From: Methylotenera sp.
GTDB taxonomy: Bacteria > Pseudomonadota > Gammaproteobacteria > Burkholderiales > Burkholderiaceae_C
NCBI GenBank assembly: GCA_021738245.1
Contig: JAIPCJ010000026.1
Span: 1-37,605 of the forward strand
DNA length: 37,605 nucleotides
Direction: 5' to 3'
A program made the translations under genes and the position numbers. The notes beneath the pieces were generated by a model, which had not been told where the DNA came from, did no database searches, and was given only the letters and a program-made list of their open reading frames with translations. This document shows positions 6,977-12,325 of the stretch, piece after piece. Position 1 is the first letter of the stretch. Each line of letters starts with the position of its first letter.

Positions 6977-7064
6977 GCCCGGGTGGCGAAATCGGTAAAC
7001 GCAGCGGACTTAAAATCCGCCGCCCTCAACAGGCGTACGGGTTCAAGTCCCGTCCCGGGCACCA
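6977..7064 (+). tRNA. tRNA-Leu (anticodon UAA), integration target
   Basis: An 88-nt class II tRNA with encoded CCA. GCCCGGG (6977-6983) pairs with CCCGGGC (7054-7060), the discriminator is A, CCA is 7062-7064, and the anticodon loop CTTAAAA gives TAA. A long variable arm is present. Its 3' end (from 7041) is the left attachment site of the element that follows. The gene remains intact because the element supplies the 3' end. Confidence 0.97.
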
Positions 7065-7069
7065 AATCA
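7041..7069 (+). other. attL: tRNA-Leu 3' end at left element boundary
   Basis: The 29-bp T-arm/acceptor end of tRNA-Leu(UAA), from GTTCAAGTCCCG to ACCAAATCA, recurs in altered form at 12299-12325 next to murI. Integration at tRNA 3' ends is typical for the P4-type integrase family encoded just downstream. Basis: the direct repeat seen plus family knowledge. Confidence 0.82.
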
Positions 7070-7098
7070 GCAGTTCACAATATCGCAGACCGCCTCAG

Positions 7099-7133
7099 GC
7101 GCCTAGGTTCATCAAGGACTTAGGCGCTTTTTT
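7099..7133 (+). terminator. Rho-independent terminator after tRNA-Leu(UAA)
   Basis: GCGCCTA (7099-7105) pairs with TAGGCGC (7121-7127), with further imperfect pairing at the loop side, and six T follow (7128-7133). It lies inside the element's left end, so the element brings a terminator that insulates the integrase from tRNA transcription. Confidence 0.85.
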
Positions 7134-7169
7134 CATGTCAGGTCCGCTCACGATCCCTCTTTACAGCGC

Positions 7170-7251
7170 GGGGGAACAAGGGGAACATCCAGGGGAACAA
7201 AGCGCCATTCCCCCGCATCGGGGGTAACTGTTCCCCCAGAGGTGTTCCCCC
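7170..7251 (+). repeat. Left arm-type repeats GGGGGAACA (3 direct, 2 inverted)
   Basis: Direct copies GGGGGAACA 7170-7178, GGGGAACA 7180-7187 and GGGGAACA 7192-7199; inverted copies TGTTCCCCC 7229-7237 and 7243-7251. A CCCCCG-CAT-CGGGGG hairpin (7210-7224) lies between the two sets. The last inverted copy sits between the AGAGG ribosome-binding site (7238-7242) and the integrase ATG (7252). Repeats of the same word occur near the right end at 12226-12246. Most likely these are integrase arm-binding or excisionase sites, which could also let the protein limit its own synthesis. Confidence 0.7.
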
Positions 7252-8493
7252 ATGCTGACCGACGCCGCCTGCCGCAACGCTGTTTGCCCTCCCGACAAAG
7301 CCCGCGTTCGCCTCTCTGATGCTGGGGGCCTGTACCTGGAAGTGGCCGCCAGTGGCTCGAAGCGCTGGTTCGTGAAGTACCGTTTCGGCGGCAAGGAAAA
7401 GCGCCTTGCCCTGGGCAACTACCCCGCTGTCACCCTCAAGGACGCCCGGGAAGGCCGCGAGAAGGCCCGCAAGACCCGGGAGGAGGGGCGCGACCCCGTC
7501 CAGGCCCGCCGCGTCGCCAAGGTGGCCGTTATGGCGAGAAGCGCCCAGACCTTCGAGGCCGTGGCCCGTGAGTTCCATAAGGCGCAGGTGAAGGGCTGGA
7601 GCGAGAACCACGCCCGACAGTGGCTGCGCACCGTCGAGAAGGACTTGTTCCCCTGGGTGGGCGCTGTTCCGCTGGGGGAACTGACGGCACCTTTGCTGCT
7701 CCAGGCCATCCGCAAGGTGGAGGCTCGGGGCGCAACTCAGATTGCCCACGATCTGCGCGGCTATGCCGGTCAGGTGTTCAAGTTCGGTATTGCCACCGGC
7801 CGATGCGCTAGCAACCCTGCCGCAGACCTTCGCGGCGCGCTGGTGGCCCACAACGTCAAGCACATGGCCGCCATCTTGGAGCCCACGCAGGTCGGCGAAC
7901 TGATGCGCGGCTTCGATGGATACACAGGGCAGCCGGCCACGCGGGCGGCGCTGATCCTGTCCGCCCTGCTGTTTCAGCGGCCCGGAAACATCCGCGCGAT
8001 GGAGTGGACCGAACTCGACCTAGACGCGGCTCTGTGGACCATCCCGGCCGCCAAGATGAAGCGCACCATCCATGGCAAGACCAATGGCCGGCCGCACTTG
8101 GTCCCGCTGCCCACGCAGGCTGTCGAGCTGCTGCGCGAGTTGGCGCCGCTGACTGGGCACGGGCGGTTTGTCTTCCCGTCCCTGTTGACGGGGGAGCGTT
8201 GCATGAGCGAGAACACCGTGAGGACCGCCCTACGGCGCCTGGGCTACGGGAATGCAGAGATGACGCCGCACGGGTTTCGAGCGATGGCGCGCACGCTGAT
8301 CGCGGAACGGGTCCCGGGCGTGTCGCCTGACGTGATCGAGGCCCAACTGGCGCACGGGAAATCCGGCCCTCTCGGCATGGCCTACGACCGCGCCGAGTTC
8401 ATGGAGCAGAGGCGGGCGCTGATGCAGGCATGGGCGGACTATCTCGACCAACTGAAGGCGGGCGGGAAGGTGATCGAGTTCAAGGCAGCTTGA
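7252..8493 (+). CDS. int: P4-family tyrosine integrase
   Basis: A 413-aa site-specific tyrosine recombinase that would integrate and excise the island at tRNA-Leu(UAA). The N-terminal arm-binding domain (DUF4102 type) covers about 1-90 (LTDAACRNAVCPPDKARVRLSDAGGLYLEV...KRLALGNYPAVTLKDAR). A core-binding SAM-like domain spans about 100-200 and the catalytic domain about 210-395. Active-site residues seen are Arg248 (RPGNIR), His340 and Arg343 (TPHGFR), His368 (LAHGK) and Tyr378 (AYDR), so it looks functional. ATG 7252 follows AGAGG by nine bases and immediately abuts a GGGGGAACA-type repeat. Length is normal for the family. Confidence 0.95.
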   Translation: MLTDAACRNAVCPPDKARVRLSDAGGLYLEVAASGSKRWFVKYRFGGKEKRLALGNYPAVTLKDAREGREKARKTREEGRDPVQARRVAKVAVMARSAQTFEAVAREFHKAQVKGWSENHARQWLRTVEKDLFPWVGAVPLGELTAPLLLQAIRKVEARGATQIAHDLRGYAGQVFKFGIATGRCASNPAADLRGALVAHNVKHMAAILEPTQVGELMRGFDGYTGQPATRAALILSALLFQRPGNIRAMEWTELDLDAALWTIPAAKMKRTIHGKTNGRPHLVPLPTQAVELLRELAPLTGHGRFVFPSLLTGERCMSENTVRTALRRLGYGNAEMTPHGFRAMARTLIAERVPGVSPDVIEAQLAHGKSGPLGMAYDRAEFMEQRRALMQAWADYLDQLKAGGKVIEFKAA

Positions 8494-8565
8494 AGTAGGT
8501 CCCCGGCATCGAGCTAGCGCCGATTGCTAACGAAAGGGTCGCCTATTGCGGTCGCCGACTGAAGA

Positions 8566-8585
8566 TGCTGTATAAAAATACAGTA
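8566..8585 (+). promoter_or_regulatory. LexA (SOS) box
   Basis: TGCTGTATAAAAATACAGTA matches 17 of 20 positions of the E. coli LexA consensus, including the invariant CTG-N10-CAG (8568-8583) and a perfect CTGT...ACAG dyad. It overlaps a TATAAA -10 candidate and lies 410 bp before alpA with no terminator seen between. LexA repression, relieved by DNA damage, is the natural reading. Confidence 0.85.
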
Positions 8586-8676
8586 TGTTGGTCGAGGTCG
8601 TCGTACTGCGCAGGGAAGGCGCGAAGATTCCACGGGAAGAGCTGGGCGCCCCTCGGCGTGGATGGCTTCGGCTTGA

Positions 8677-8943
8677 CGCGGCCAACTAATCAGGCGCGCA
8701 AGCCAGAGGGCCGCTCACCTACGGCACGGCAAGACCAATACAGCGCGTACCTTTGTTGTACATGAATGGCTCGCGCACAAGGCGGCCTACGCGGGCAACA
8801 AGTCTGCTTTTGCCCGGGACTACGTTCGCCGAGTTCTGAATGAGTTTGACGTACGCATAACTGAGAAGACCGTTAGGGAGGTTTGGCTGGCTGATACCCC
8901 GGATGCGGGCATTCAGGCCGGATTACAGGCAGACGGGGAATGA
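8677..8943 (+). pseudogene. Possible gene remnant or non-canonically started small protein
   Basis: This frame opens after TGA 8674-8676 and ends at TGA 8941-8943. Its last ~65 residues look protein-like: KTNTARTFVVHEWLAHKAAY followed by AGNKSAFARDYVRRVLNEFD and a TEKTVREVWL segment, amphipathic-helical in character. There is no ATG, GTG or TTG in the well-behaved part. The start may lie in the +1-shifted ATG frame at 8585, implying a frameshift, or the gene may be decayed. No family is recognised. Confidence 0.4.
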
Positions 8944-8995
8944 CCGGCTGAGCAGGAAGATTCACGATTGCGCCATCCAGTCAGGAGGGCGCACG

Positions 8996-9247
8996 ATGCA
9001 GCCATTCATCACTCAAGCCGGGCGCGGCAATGGACGCAATCCCCAGCCGCTGCACGCGGTTCAACTCGCCGATGCGCTGCTGCGCCTTCAAACGGTCGCC
9101 AGTGCCACCGGCCTATCTGGCGCGACGATCTACAGGAAGCTGAAGGCGGGCGAGTTTCCCAGCCCCGTACGCATGGGCGCCCGCTGCACCCGCTGGAAGG
9201 CCGCTGACGTGCGGGCCTGGATTCAGGCTCAAGGGGGTGAGCAATGA
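8996..9247 (+). CDS. AlpA-family DNA-binding regulator/excisionase
   Basis: An 83-aa helix-turn-helix protein. The core LQTVASATGLSGATIYRKLKAGEFPSPVRMG followed by RWKAADVRAWIQAQ is the AlpA/phage P4 Vis-type pattern, in which the helix-turn-helix picks DNA sites and a tryptophan-bearing strand follows. In related elements such proteins activate or perform excision together with the integrase. The start at 8996 is chosen because AGGAGGG (8983-8989) sits seven bases upstream. It overlaps the next gene by ATGA and heads a run of overlapping genes. The LexA box upstream suggests SOS control. Confidence 0.85.
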   Translation: MQPFITQAGRGNGRNPQPLHAVQLADALLRLQTVASATGLSGATIYRKLKAGEFPSPVRMGARCTRWKAADVRAWIQAQGGEQ

Positions 9248-9543
9248 CCGCCCCCCACAACATCACGCCGGAGCGAGTGGCAGCGCTACACGCCATCCGC
9301 GACCGTCATCGCGGTGACGCTTGCGCCACCCAGGCCGCACGGCTCTTGGACGCGCTGGAAACGCTCCAGCCCATACCGACCTACGAAGCGAGCCGGTGCC
9401 TTGACCTGTACGACCCGAGGGCGCGCAAGCTCAATCTCGTGAAGGCCGGGCATCGCATCCTGACGGCCTGGCGCACGGTCCACACCGAGAGCGGCGCACC
9501 ACATCGCGTCGGGGTCTACACGCTCATCCGGGGTGAGGCATGA
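9244..9543 (+). CDS. Small helix-turn-helix-like protein of mobile elements
   Basis: A 99-aa protein. The segment from about residue 30 (AARLLDALETLQPIPTYEASRCLDLYDPRARKLNLVKAGHRILTAW) followed by the HRVGVYTL strand resembles small phage and island proteins with a winged-helix fold. Those proteins typically read 'xTxEAxxxLxxxxPxxRxxxLxxxGxxIxTxW'. Its role is unknown; DNA binding is inferred. ATG overlaps the alpA stop (ATGA, 9244-9247), so translation is probably coupled. Confidence 0.7.
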   Translation: MTAPHNITPERVAALHAIRDRHRGDACATQAARLLDALETLQPIPTYEASRCLDLYDPRARKLNLVKAGHRILTAWRTVHTESGAPHRVGVYTLIRGEA

Positions 9544-9809
9544 GCGCGGCAGAGATGCAGGCGGGCGACGTTGGGCGAGCCGGGCAGGGCATGGCGACGT
9601 TTCATGCCGGACACCAAGGGCATGGGAAGCGGCTCGCCACGCTCCAGGCCCTCTTTGCCTTGCGTGGCTATGCACTGCACCAACTCGTCGATTCGACGCT
9701 GCTGGTGGAGCGCTGGGGCTACTGCCGGCCTATCGCCAATGTGGATGAGGCTGCTCAGGTGCTGGCCCAGCTCGGTGGCGCGCCTGCAGGCTGGGTCGGT
9801 CATGGCTAA
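9540..9809 (+). CDS. Hypothetical protein of the island
   Basis: An 89-aa protein with ATGA overlap to the upstream gene (9540-9543) and 8-bp overlap with the downstream one, so it belongs to the same tightly packed operon. The core ATLQALFALRGYALHQLVDSTLLVERWGYCRPIANVDEAAQVLAQLGG looks like a small alpha/beta domain seen in tRNA-integrated islands of proteobacteria, but I cannot assign a function. No signal peptide or membrane segment is present. Confidence 0.65.
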   Translation: MSAAEMQAGDVGRAGQGMATFHAGHQGHGKRLATLQALFALRGYALHQLVDSTLLVERWGYCRPIANVDEAAQVLAQLGGAPAGWVGHG

Positions 9810-10614
9810 CGCCCGCAGCATCGGCCGCAAGGGCGACGCCGGTCGGGACTCCGGCGGCTTCATGGCGCTGCCGTGGTCGGTCATGGATTGCCCCGCCTAC
9901 CGGCGCCTGAGCTACGCCGCACGGTCGCTGCTGTTGGAAATCTTCCGGCAGTTCGTGAAGGACAACAACGGCCGACTTCTGGCGAGCCGGGCCTATCTCG
10001 CCGGCCGTGGCTGGAACTCGGCCGACGTTATCGACCGGGCGAAGCGTGAACTGCTCGAAGCCGGTTTCATTCATGAGACGGTGAAGGGGCACAGGCCGAA
10101 CAAGGCGAGCTGGTACGCGGTGACGTGGCGCATTCTTGACCCGCATCACGGCTATGACCCGGGCGCTGCGGCGACGTTTGTGCGCGGCGCCTACCGTGGC
10201 GCAAGCCTGCCGGAACCCCTCAAGAAAAACGCAGTCCTTAGTCCGGCTGGCGGAACAGGGAACGCCGCTATTGGTCCGTCTCCCGGAACAGGAAGGGACA
10301 CCGCTGTTCCGTCTCCCGGACCTATGGAGCCTGTTGCCGTGGCCCTCTCTGTTCCGTCTGCCGGACACCATCTAGAAATGCCATCTGAAGGTGAGCGAGC
10401 AGGGGGTGAGGGGCACGACGGGGAGCAGGACCACGACCCCGACGACGAGTGCAGCCGCGAAAGTGAGGGCGAGATTGACGTGAGCCGCTTCGACCCGGTG
10501 ACGGGTGAGTTTCTGCCCCCGCATGAGATCCCAGCGCAGCCGCTCACGAAGGCCGCCGCTGCATGGGTCGAGGCCAGTCTGGGCCAGCATGGCGCGGGTC
10601 GGCGTGCTGCCTAG
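9802..10614 (+). CDS. Winged-helix replication-like protein
   Basis: 270 aa. Residues ~20-110 (FMALPWSVMDCPAYRRLSYAARSLLLEIFRQF, then NNGRLLASRAYLAGRGW and AKRELLEAGFIHETV) form a winged-helix unit. This type is common in island and plasmid replication or regulatory proteins, where the 'A R L L L E' helix and 'S R A Y L A' recognition helix are typical. From about 135 to 200 the protein is Pro/Gly/Ser-rich with recurring PSPG motifs encoded by iteron-like DNA repeats. The tail is acidic. ATG 9802 is preferred over earlier in-frame starts because it limits overlap with the preceding gene to 8 bp. Replication initiation is an inference; no catalytic domain is seen. Confidence 0.68.
   Translation: MANARSIGRKGDAGRDSGGFMALPWSVMDCPAYRRLSYAARSLLLEIFRQFVKDNNGRLLASRAYLAGRGWNSADVIDRAKRELLEAGFIHETVKGHRPNKASWYAVTWRILDPHHGYDPGAAATFVRGAYRGASLPEPLKKNAVLSPAGGTGNAAIGPSPGTGRDTAVPSPGPMEPVAVALSVPSAGHHLEMPSEGERAGGEGHDGEQDHDPDDECSRESEGEIDVSRFDPVTGEFLPPHEIPAQPLTKAAAAWVEASLGQHGAGRRAA
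10243..10365 (+). repeat. Iteron-like repeats CCGTCTCCCGGA inside the Rep-like gene
   Basis: Copies: CCGGCTGGCGGA 10243-10254, CCGTCTCCCGGA 10276-10287, CCGTCTCCCGGA 10309-10320 and CCGTCTGCCGGA 10354-10365. A weaker copy (CCTGCCGGAA) lies at 10206-10215. The first three are exactly 33 bp apart, about three helical turns. Each has a TCCG...CGGA half-dyad. They translate to repeated PSPG/PSAG, so they may be peptide repeats, DNA sites, or both; origins embedded in rep genes are known in other systems. Confidence 0.55.
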
Positions 10615-10661
10615 AACCGGGGTTTGCCTAATGATTTCGTATTCAGTGCGGGGTGCTGATC

Positions 10662-11252
10662 GTGGCTAAGGGCGGGTACAGGTGGAACGCTGGCCGACCG
10701 GCAATGCACGTCAAGGCCGAACACTGCCTTCGGATCGACGCACGGCGCTGGGCGCGTGAAGGCATGTTCACGGCCGGCCGCTTCGGCGCCTGGGTGTGGC
10801 GCGATGCCGATAGCGCGCAGGAAACCGGCCGGATCGGCTACCAGGGCGAGGGCGGTGCCGTGTCGCTCAACTTCAGCGTGAACGGCGAGCCTGTGCGCCA
10901 GCACATCACCACCCAGCGGACAGCGTGCAACTACGGCGGCAGTCGCCTGTGGTTCACATGCCCGCGCTGCTGGCGGCGCGTGGCCGTGCTGTTCCTTCGC
11001 GGAAATGCCGGGTTCGTCTGCCGGCACTGCGGGCGCATCGCCTACGGCAGTCAGAGCGATGACGCGATGGGGCGGGCCTGGAGGAAGCAGCACAAGGCCG
11101 AGGCAAAGCTGGTGGATGGCTGGCGCCGGCCGAAAGGGATGCACCAGGCTACCCGTGAGCGGCTGATCGCCATCATCATTGAATGCGAAGAGCGGCGAGA
11201 TGCTGCGCTTGCAGCGTTCGTTTCTCGGCACCTTCCCGGGGGCTGGGTATAG
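10662..11252 (+). CDS. Zinc-ribbon protein of mobile islands
   Basis: A 196-aa protein beginning MAKGGYRWNAGRP from GTG 10662, with GGGGTG about eight bases upstream; an alternative GTG lies at 10653. A four-cysteine zinc ribbon is visible as CPRCWRRV...CRHCGRIAYGSQ, followed by a basic helical tail (RAWRKQHKAEAKLV...RPKGMHQATRERLIAII). The HVKAEHCLRIDARR...G N-terminal pattern is one I associate with small proteins of tRNA-integrated elements next to Rep-like genes. Biochemical function is unknown; nucleic-acid binding is likely from the zinc ribbon. Confidence 0.7.
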   Translation: MAKGGYRWNAGRPAMHVKAEHCLRIDARRWAREGMFTAGRFGAWVWRDADSAQETGRIGYQGEGGAVSLNFSVNGEPVRQHITTQRTACNYGGSRLWFTCPRCWRRVAVLFLRGNAGFVCRHCGRIAYGSQSDDAMGRAWRKQHKAEAKLVDGWRRPKGMHQATRERLIAIIIECEERRDAALAAFVSRHLPGGWV

Positions 11253-11329
11253 GGGTGGGGGCGCCTGAAATCTCCACGACCCTCGTGCACCTGACCGCTA
11301 CTGTCTGCCACACGCGGAACATTTCCCCC

Positions 11330-11351
11330 TTTTGATTCTGTCAAATCAAAA
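11330..11351. terminator. AT-rich inverted repeat between convergent genes
   Basis: TTTTGATT (11330-11337), loop CTGTCA, AATCAAAA (11344-11351). It lies between the plus-strand zinc-ribbon gene and the minus-strand DUF3800 gene. The symmetric T/A arms suit a bidirectional terminator, although the stem is AT-rich and the site could instead bind a protein. The rest of 11253-11490 shows nothing I can name. Confidence 0.45.
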
Positions 11352-11490
11352 ACAGGGCGGCTCTGTAGACCCACTCCAGGGTGAGAGGTTAGACTCGCGC
11401 TGAGTTGGCGCGGTCCTAATCGACGATAAGAGCCCCGGCGGAGCTTCCTTCACTGGATAGTTGAATCAAGGGGCCGCGTCACTCACCCCC

Positions 11491-12144
11491 TCAGTAGTAG
11501 TGCGTTCGACCGTGAGCCCAGAGGTCGTACTCGTACACGATCTTGTCCTTGATGAGGTCGTAGGCTTGGGAGTCTCCTCGCTCCCATTTACGTTGAATGG
11601 CCCATGTGCAGTAGTCGGTGACCTGGAGGCAAGGGTCAGACGCTGATGACCAAAATGCAGCACGCCAGACGACATGCCGGGCGGTCTGGTCGAGAACGTC
11701 CTTCACAGCCTCTGAAAATGCGGTCTGGCCCTTCTTGGTCCCGATCGACGCCGCCGTAATCATTAGCCTGTCGTTGGTGTTGACCATCTTCGGCAGGCAG
11801 TGACGCAAAAGGTAAAGCCAGGCGTGCTTGTAGAAGCGTTCCTTATTTGGCCGGATCTGCGGTTGTGCTTTCGACTTTTCGAGAATCTGGGCGTACACGC
11901 GAAAGTCGTGCTTGCAGATCAACTCGAACACCTTGGCGCGTACCTTCGCGTGGTCTTTCGTGCAGTGAAAGTAGTCCCCGAGCGGAAGGCCTTCCCAGGC
12001 CATTTCACGGCGAAGGTCTAGCAGTTCCTTGCCAAGGTCACAGTCGGCCATGTCCACGGCACAGACGATGAAATACTTGCTGACGTTGGGCTTGCGGGAA
12101 AACTCGAAGCATCCCGCCTCGTCAGAGAACACGTAGCGCGTCAT
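11491..12144 (-). CDS. DUF3800 domain protein (probable island cargo)
   Basis: A 217-aa protein with the DUF3800 pattern. An N-terminal strand with acidic pair RYVFSDEAG (Asp8-Glu9) is followed by FHCTKDHAKVR (His60) and a C-terminal DPCLQVTDYCTWAIQRKWERGD (Asp170, Asp177). The family is predicted to have an RNase H-like fold, so the acidic residues may bind metal for nuclease action; its biochemical role is not settled. It is the only minus-strand gene in the island, lies at the right end where satellites often carry passenger genes, and has visibly less extreme GC bias than its neighbours. A GGGGGG run precedes ATG 12144. Anti-phage activity is possible but unproven. Confidence 0.8.
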   Translation of the reverse strand: MTRYVFSDEAGCFEFSRKPNVSKYFIVCAVDMADCDLGKELLDLRREMAWEGLPLGDYFHCTKDHAKVRAKVFELICKHDFRVYAQILEKSKAQPQIRPNKERFYKHAWLYLLRHCLPKMVNTNDRLMITAASIGTKKGQTAFSEAVKDVLDQTARHVVWRAAFWSSASDPCLQVTDYCTWAIQRKWERGDSQAYDLIKDKIVYEYDLWAHGRTHYY

Positions 12145-12225
12145 CTACCCCCCCTGCGGCGCTGCTGCGGTGCGCGCTTTATATCGTGCGTACGGCCCTA
12201 GGATTCTGGCCATGGCGGACGCGTC

Positions 12226-12246
12226 GGGGGAACAGACGGGGGAACA
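12226..12246 (+). repeat. Right arm-type repeats GGGGGAACA (2 direct)
   Basis: GGGGGAACA at 12226-12234 and 12238-12246, 12 bp apart. They match the left-end repeats at 7170-7251 and lie 53 bp before attR. Presence at both ends, flanking the attachment core after circularisation, is the layout expected for integrase arm sites. Confidence 0.72.
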
Positions 12247-12298
12247 ATCAGCTATCGACGCTGGTAGGCGCCTTGTTTCATGGGGCATAGCGGCGAGT

Positions 12299-12325
12299 GT
12301 TCAACTCCCGTCCCGCACCAAGTCA
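12299..12325 (+). other. attR: decayed copy of tRNA-Leu 3' end
   Basis: Aligns to 7041-7069 with two substitutions (C for G in GTTCAACTCCCG, G for A near the end) and loss of two G from the CCCGGGC acceptor strand. It ends 13 bp before the murI stop. It is presumably the original chromosomal tRNA end, freed from selection after the element supplied a new one. Confidence 0.8.

Follow-up and report, generated by a model that had tools for sequence, protein, structure and literature searches.

The window analysed here is a stretch of 37,605 bases (contig JAIPCJ010000026.1, positions 1 to 37,605) that is part of the 4.64-Mb draft genome, 92% complete, of a Methylotenera sp. Within this window, a mobile-element-like insertion of about 5.26 kb, which is the subject of this analysis, occupies the 3' end of a tRNA-Leu(UAA) gene (6977..7064, plus strand), the final gene of an array with the order Gly-Cys-Gly-Gly-Leu that ends at position 7064. 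The 3' end of this gene constitutes the left attachment repeat (7041-7063), and an imperfect copy of it constitutes the right attachment repeat (12299..12325, plus strand), which starts 5258 bp further on and is followed by the chromosome on the side of a gene that, judging from its protein sequence, we take to be murI. The two repeats have 17 nt in common with 1 mismatch, after which a 2-nt indel precedes CACCA; TCCCGTCCC is still common to both and would be long enough for a short crossover core. An empty site was found in the nearest congener by murI (G597, locus L103), where tRNA-Leu(UAA) lies 13 bp ahead of the murI match and where the similarity to the window restarts immediately past the right repeat. 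The borders of the element are therefore real. Among 19 murI loci of the genus, including the window's own copy, tRNA-Leu(UAA) is found within the stretch read at 10 and lies no more than 50 bp from the murI match at 5. An earlier interpretation made from the letters alone (the sequence-only reading) had noted a tRNA 3'-end repeat at both borders, to which it now has to be added that this repeat is imperfect. By eye, an element-supplied hairpin with a T-run is visible at 7092-7135, just after the tRNA, and apparently substitutes for the terminator of the tRNA operon.

Nearest to the left border lies the gene for a tyrosine integrase of 413 aa (7252..8493, plus strand) that matches the Pfam domains Arm-DNA-bind_3, Phage_int_M and Phage_integrase, a domain set from which we presume that it belongs to the P4-integrase superfamily. 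The full R-H-R-H-Y set of residues claimed for it was located by eye in the translation. The claimed arm-type repeats are likewise present at both ends, with five copies of GGGGAACA on the left (7171..7250; three on the plus and two on the minus strand) and two on the right (12227..12246, plus strand). With one further copy inside int, the window holds 8 copies versus 1.07 expected, a number reached in 0 of 100 shuffles. Arm-like repeats at both ends were also seen, with no shuffle control, in 8 related elements with 4.7-8.2 kb between the repeats, of which L069, L071, L074, L087 and L099 measure about 4.7-5.4 kb and L066, L085 and L093 are larger.

Downstream of int, four genes on the plus strand overlap one another, by 4, 4 and 8 nt; such a series of small genes leading to a Rep-like gene had already been noted. 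The first encodes an AlpA-type regulator or excisionase (8996..9247; Pfam E 1.9e-12), for which the ATG at 8996 is the preferred start because an AGGAGGG ribosome-binding site precedes it, the reading frame being open from 8903. It is followed by genes for a 99-aa HTH_39 winged-helix protein (9244..9543; Pfam E 1.1e-17), for an orphan 89-aa protein (9540..9809) that has a conserved counterpart in L062 and weak matches in L087, L078, L182, L186 and L187, and for a 270-aa Rep-like initiator (9802..10614). A protein with a zinc ribbon of two CxxC pairs, recognised by eye, is encoded next (10662..11252, plus strand; start chosen by alignment with relatives, frame open from 10653). Profile searches with this protein returned no family above its cut-off, and a search of PDB profiles gave three hits only, with E values of 0.36-2.2. 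The last gene, on the minus strand (11491..12144), encodes a DUF3800 protein (Pfam E 9.9e-8; PADLOC DUF3800_VII E 2.1e-10). Thus, all of the AlpA-like, small helix-turn-helix, 89-aa, Rep-like, zinc-ribbon and reverse-strand DUF3800 genes named in the sequence-only reading were recovered. In the gap between the last two genes, at 11320-11350, an AT-rich inverted repeat (TTTTGATT...AATCAAAA) was seen by eye, which could be a terminator, an operator or a melting site.

The Rep-like protein consists of an N-terminal DNA-binding domain, a Pro/Gly-rich linker and a C-terminal part. It matched no Pfam family at E 1, showed a weak match to PHROG replication initiators (E 3.4e-4), and had as its only sequence match in PDB the RepA_N structure 4pta (E 0.57). 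Among 34 members of the Rep family none matched RepA_N (PF06970) at E 1, and 6 matched HTH_36 (PF13730; best 8.9e-4), the window Rep not being one of them. The linker is encoded by four in-frame iterons on the plus strand, namely AGTCCGGCTGGCGGAACA (10240..10257, degenerate), GGTCCGTCTCCCGGAACA (10273..10290), GTTCCGTCTCCCGGACCT (10306..10323) and GTTCCGTCTGCCGGACAC (10351..10368), and four such repeats with a spacing of 33, 33 and 45 bp are found in most Rep genes of the family. Each iteron is an inverted repeat, mostly of the form NNNCCG-N5-CGGNNN, that codes for P-S-x-G. The arms vary from element to element and agree within an element, as is illustrated by TCCG..CGGA in the window, ACACCG..CGGTGT in L063, GTACCG..CGGTAC in L065 and GTACG..CGTAC in L059.

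The iterons were collected through the protein alignment rather than with a DNA pattern and were compared in 31 of 47 Rep genes, 12 genes without four alignable iterons and 4 that were at least 80% identical to another having been excluded. The inner pairs of the palindrome are nearly invariant, because the Pro and Gly codons fix them. The outer bases are more informative: base 3 is the third position of the codon preceding Pro, and base 15 is the third position of the Gly codon. In iterons 1 to 4, pair 3-15 is of the Watson-Crick type in 74, 87, 94 and 65% of the genes versus 40-44% after shuffling of one side (94 versus 44% in iteron 3), and the corresponding values for pair 2-16 are 45-65% and 26-34%. 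For each of the four iterons, none of 2000 shuffles attained the mean over the three outer pairs. In addition, iterons 2 and 3 of the same element are identical at bases 3 and 15 with a frequency of 0.90, compared to 0.44 upon permutation (0 of 5000). The synonymous bases thus change together in a way that preserves the palindrome, and they are alike within one gene, which indicates that the DNA itself is under selection, and we conclude that the iterons are under DNA-level constraint. In the protein alignment, residue 74 of Rep, which probably lies in the recognition helix, is the column most strongly associated with pair 3-15 (z 5.7 in 42 of the 47 genes, uncorrected for the tree or for the number of columns). 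Ala at this residue goes with T-A in 9 genes and A-T in 4, Asn, Ser or Thr with A-T in 11, Pro with T-A in 3, and Lys with C-G in 3 and A-A in 2. Outside rep, the window element contains two partial iteron matches in int with 1-2 mismatches, neither of them convincing, and no AT-rich melting site is evident near the iterons. Altogether, the replication origin is probably located inside the initiator gene, an arrangement that is also known from phage lambda, the origin of which lies within gene O.

Searches with this Rep hit 26 of 300 genomes from the order, 46 of 399 from the family (both at E 1e-3, with overlapping samples) and 13 of 274 from the class (E 1e-10). A total of 62 Rep-anchored loci was considered, comprising 45 loci read at length (L057-L101, of which L062-L101 are 40 loci chosen by score from the Rep hits, plus 5 more), 16 from a viral collection (L125-L140) and the window. 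These figures include L061 and L075, which are the same place in one genome, L072 and L130, with identical Rep domains, and L063 and L126, with near-identical ones; some queries were taken from L064, L090, L098 and L066, which hence match themselves. Direct repeats of a tRNA 3' end enclose 16 of the 45 loci, over 4.7-13.0 kb, at genes for tRNA-Thr, Met, Gly, Lys, Ser, His and Val. These bounding repeats span 14-111 nt, mostly 46-111 nt, those of L065, L066 and L077 being only 14-17 nt long, and L083 contains an additional repeat of 51 nt.

The zinc-ribbon protein was detected in 25 of 299 genomes (E 1e-6), and 20 of its 26 places were read. An integrase match was found at 10 of these, alpA at 9, HTH_39 at 7, Rep at 6 and a tRNA-Pro(GGG) within the stretch at 5. 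L062, L087, L173 and L174 have the whole series int-alpA-HTH_39-rep-zinc ribbon in this order, and L099, L170, L171 and L175 have it with one piece undetected. The same gene order was therefore encountered at other tRNA sites and with other cargo at the right end, and the core genes recur together in the host's own family, which bears out the suggestion that this gene set defines an element family in the Burkholderiales. This recurrence, together with the borders and the empty site, supports the view of a self-contained tRNA-integrated element. The DUF3800 protein, by comparison, was found in 3 of the 299 genomes, the other two copies being 27-30% identical, and was rejected as a feature of the family. 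The zinc-ribbon gene behaves as core, and the rarity of DUF3800 fits its earlier description as a passenger. In the viral collection, none of 36 candidate stretches was confirmed as a zinc-ribbon relative. Of the 154 ORFs called in 25 relatives, with integrases removed beforehand, 149 were scanned against Pfam, and 8 of 10 large cargo ORFs had no family. In L172, L174, L178 and L185 the zinc-ribbon match ends about 220-370 bases ahead of a minus-strand tRNA-Pro(GGG), as if it were the distal core gene of a lineage specific for tRNA-Pro.

Several relatives carry phage head genes. In L063 and L068, the region downstream of Rep has PHROG matches to a major head protein, head protease, portal, HNH nuclease, small and large terminase subunits (TerS and TerL), adaptor and head closure, and several of the 16 loci from the viral collection have the whole head series. 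L063 is delimited by a perfect 19-nt repeat over 13.05 kb, has genes for a HipA toxin and a helix-turn-helix protein at its end, and has no tail gene among its called ORFs; viral contigs were not searched for tail genes. At least one head or TerL match is found at 16 of the 62 Rep loci, and the set of head, protease, portal and TerL at 9; of the remaining loci, 6 have a DUF5681 gene, 4 a zinc ribbon and 36 none of these. Head-bearing elements with related integrase, AlpA and Rep are L063, L072, L126, L130 and L133. The window integrase is 62, 60 and 65% identical to those of L063, L072 and L126, respectively, and the top identity of the window Rep DNA-binding domain (77%) is to L126. In a tree of this domain (47 rows, including 14 with head genes; good support for 6 of 42 inner branches), the head label needs 8 changes versus a shuffled mean of 12.3, with 3 of 500 shuffles as low, and the rows nearest to the window by path are the head-bearing L063 and L126, followed by L062. 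Going by this tree, head genes have come and gone next to a front half that is common to these elements. A mutual exclusion of zinc-ribbon and head genes was also considered, since 0 of 82 loci have both (24 with zinc ribbon, 16 with head genes). It is not claimed, because 20 loci were picked by their zinc ribbon and because the viral collection favours head genes. A further relative, L090:6207-16469, spans 10.3 kb at tRNA-Val. Besides the same Rep and a head-protein match, it encodes a protein of 744 aa that contains a lambda tape-measure domain, which is unusual as a tail gene in a satellite.

To place the element, it was compared with known satellites and replicons. With an integrase and attachment repeats that bound the integrated sequence, it has the integrative features of a phage satellite in the broad sense, to which transfer in the particles of a helper phage would also belong. 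P4-like satellites are defined by an alpha primase-helicase and capsid-size genes. The window element has the P4-superfamily integrase and an AlpA/Vis-type protein, and no primase-helicase or capsid-size gene was found among its 8 ORFs; P4 membership was therefore rejected. Capsid-forming phage-inducible chromosomal islands (cf-PICIs) occur mainly in Enterobacteriaceae, lactobacilli, Pasteurella and others (PMC10803314). The relatives, not the window element, share with them the major head, protease, portal, HNH, TerS, TerL and connector genes, and the plan of L063 matches; the hosts here are Burkholderiales instead, and gene order was not part of the comparison. For the window element itself, membership was rejected, no head or terminase genes of its own having been found. 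The six-gene prototype of the phage-inducible chromosomal minimalist islands (PICMIs) of Vibrionaceae resembles it in being very small and in combining int, alpA, a replication gene and an accessory gene without capsid-remodelling genes, but the PICMI model demands a DUF3987/DUF5906 primase and a fis site (PMC10803314). The window element has neither, its initiator being Rep-like and its site, as in the relatives, a tRNA gene, and PICMI membership was likewise rejected. The six-gene PICMI is packaged by its helper as a concatemer (PMC10803314), and a packaging of this kind would suit an element of 5.3 kb.

PICIs of Gram-negative bacteria of the EcCICFT073 type share with the window element an integrase, an AlpA homolog, a replication initiator with iterons and mostly rightward transcription. 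Their Pri-Rep protein is, however, associated with an origin immediately 3' of its gene, in which two iteron sets flank an AT-rich region (PMC6092414), whereas the four iterons of the window lie inside rep and no second set of such iterons was found. A parallel in protein plan comes from staphylococcal plasmids. In the RepA_N initiator of pSK41, an N-terminal winged helix binds four boxes located centrally in rep, and an origin-encoded linker leads to a separate C-terminal domain (PMC5703833). The same winged-helix N-terminus, four central boxes, linker and C-terminal domain apply to the PF13730-type pPR9 chimera. Sequence support for a kinship of the window Rep with RepA_N is thin, given the 4pta match at E 0.57 and the absence of a Pfam match. 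A RepA_N initiator with semi-palindromic iterons is also used by the PICI-like element (PLE) of Vibrio cholerae, for which no primase or helicase activity is predicted (PMC7145576) and which differs in its size of 18-19 kb, its large serine recombinase and its other gene content. PMC7145576 also mentions a pair of RepA_N sequences from Burkholderiales and raises the possibility that chromosomal genes of this sort are parts of cryptic satellites, a hint that points the same way as the present family. No description of such a satellite family in Burkholderiales was found among the papers listed in the literature searches, the coverage of which was sparse for subscription journals.

These findings lead us to consider the window element as a minimal integrative element of the phage-satellite-like kind, equipped with a replicon of its own and a single accessory gene (DUF3800), a reading to which we assign a probability of roughly two in three. 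A minimal satellite had already been proposed in the sequence-only reading; this part of the proposal has gained relatives with head genes and related integrase, AlpA and Rep, while P4 membership and SOS control as a family trait have fallen away. The P4-superfamily integrase would have inserted the element into the 3' end of tRNA-Leu, an end that the element rebuilds, with AlpA acting alongside it as an excision factor or switch. The translationally coupled operon of alpA, HTH_39, the 89-aa gene and rep would then yield the initiator, the DNA-binding domain of which would bind the four palindromic iterons inside rep, so that the excised circle could replicate on host or helper machinery. In the mechanism that we regard as most likely, this first half, comprising excision, operon and initiation, draws on domain identity and the iteron evidence. 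For transfer, packaging of the element DNA in helper-phage particles is proposed because the element lacks recognisable genes for a head, a terminase or conjugation, and is suggested by the head-bearing relatives. The zinc-ribbon core gene would be the best candidate for a helper-facing function, and DUF3800 may be a replaceable passenger, possibly directed against phages. The binding of Rep to the iterons, replication after excision, helper packaging and the roles of AlpA, the zinc-ribbon protein and DUF3800 in this element are thus what we infer.

Several observations weigh against this interpretation. None of 50,697 phage and 72,556 plasmid records gave a Rep match when the first 200 residues were searched, the window element has no recognisable transfer gene (cos and pac sites were not searched for), and no match to HK97-type (PF05065) or P2-type (PF05125) capsids was detected in the 92%-complete draft host, so that a resident helper of these two types was not seen. 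Head genes are a minority trait, 36 of the 62 Rep loci having no head, DUF5681 or zinc-ribbon match. The viral collection favours head-bearing loci, and the count of 16 falls to 15 if L064 is left out, its match being to a query from its own protein, for which Pfam returned nothing. The window shares its fork of the Rep tree with L062 and L058, both without head genes, with a support of 93 in the Shimodaira-Hasegawa-like approximate likelihood ratio test (SH-aLRT). As to the iterons, the outermost pair 1-17 stays within the range of its shuffles for iterons 2 and 3, and in iteron 4 these bases seldom pair (0.06 versus 0.03); relatedness is ignored by the shuffles. Lastly, the right attachment repeat is damaged by its mismatch and indel, and the slot between int and alpA is decayed; due to these defects, this copy may be old or immobile.

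The latter two defects are also what would be expected if the element were a relic, a once-mobile satellite that is now fixed and retained by chance or for the sake of DUF3800, as would be the lack of a helper of the two common capsid types in the host draft. This possibility survives best among the alternatives, and we nevertheless regard it as unlikely. The frames of int, alpA, HTH_39, the 89-aa gene, rep and the zinc-ribbon gene are all open, the arm repeats are intact, and the TCCCGTCCC retained by both attachment repeats should suffice for a short crossover. Relative to L062, the ratios of non-synonymous to synonymous substitution (dN/dS) are 0.24 for int, 0.42 for HTH_39, 0.31 for the 89-aa gene, 0.39 for rep and 0.17 for the zinc-ribbon gene, although these values mostly reflect selection before the integration at this site. 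The decay itself lies in a slot (8585-8995) that is occupied in relatives by differing intact ORFs, eight of which (158-277 aa) gave self-matches only among 46 loci at E 0.01. In the window, remnants of one or more genes lie at 8585..8940 on the plus strand, including a 71-codon stretch (8728-8940) with L074 as its single weak relative (E 4e-5).

The same slot bears on the idea, put forward in the sequence-only reading, that the element is induced by the SOS response, with LexA repressing alpA and DNA damage triggering excision. A perfect LexA-type box does exist (CTGTATAAAAATACAG, 8568..8583). It conforms to CTGTATN4ATACAG, is the sole such site in the draft host genome and arose in 0 of 100 shuffles of the window. 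Two ACTGTN8ACAGT sites lie elsewhere in the host genome at the starts of ORFs that we take to be repair-type radical-SAM genes, and the host therefore probably reads boxes of this type. However, as the likelier alpA start is at 8996, the box is about 410 bp upstream of alpA rather than directly before it, and it immediately precedes a frame, different from that of the 71-codon stretch, which ends in a stop after 34 codons. In the scan of 45 relatives at a threshold of at least 11 of 16 matching bases, which preceded the fetching of the later loci, 44 had no box, and the one exception, L059, has a weak box (11/16) that is likewise situated between int and alpA. Moreover, alpA expression in the studied E. 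coli PICI answers to the helper phage and not to SOS (PMC6092414). SOS control was thus rejected as a feature of the family, and excision linked to SOS is improbable for the window element as well; its box, unconserved in relatives, may be a private acquisition that drove a now-decayed gene.

Integrated replicons of the integrative conjugative and integrative mobilizable element types exist. That the window element is one of the latter, circularising with a plasmid-type Rep and being mobilised by a helper conjugative plasmid from an oriT in cis, is highly improbable, as the resemblance in plan to RepA_N initiators with their origin in the rep gene (PMC5703833; 4pta at E 0.57) is countered by the lack of a relaxase among the ORFs of the window element (oriT was not searched for) and among the matches listed (25 of 43 Pfam families) for the 149 proteins of 25 relatives, by the failure to find Rep in plasmid records, and by the phage head genes of the relatives; the term 'mobilizable' in its conjugative sense therefore finds no support.

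Returning to the satellite interpretation, we tentatively suggest, at somewhat less than even odds, that it extends to a Burkholderiales satellite family not described as such before. Its members would share one front half, consisting of a tRNA-specific integrase, AlpA and an initiator with an internal origin and element-specific iterons that track the likely recognition-helix residue, and would differ in exchangeable back halves, namely a full module of phage-head genes, a gene for DUF5681 or one for the zinc-ribbon protein. The zinc-ribbon elements of about 5 kb would be packaged by a helper via the zinc-ribbon protein, and several satellites could coexist in one cell because their iteron types would define compatibility groups. 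What stands out in the finding is the likely internal origin, together with the relatives that bear head genes. Small tRNA islands are common and mostly unexplained, and the shared replicon, which ties a 5-kb element without recognised transfer genes to head-bearing relatives, one of them delimited at 13 kb, offers a concrete hypothesis for their movement. An internal origin with element-specific palindromes would provide a sequence handle for classification and for a Rep-iteron specificity code, and the head-bearing relatives would extend the capsid-forming satellite plan to Burkholderiales.

Some minor features of the relatives may be mentioned. Toxin-antitoxin genes are frequent among them (L058, L060, L063, L080, L083 and others), with 4 HigB-like proteins and one each of HipA, HicA, YoeB and BrnT among the 149 proteins. 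In a class genome (G839), two Rep matches 30 kb apart (L195 and L203) each have an internal stop and possibly represent two decayed elements. Lastly, a protein of about 300 aa is encoded just upstream of rep in L063 (10005-10907), L066 (3754-4680), L126, L136 and L139, and it is probably this protein that accounts for the matches of 2 of the 149 proteins to the PHROG annotation 'DNA topoisomerase'.

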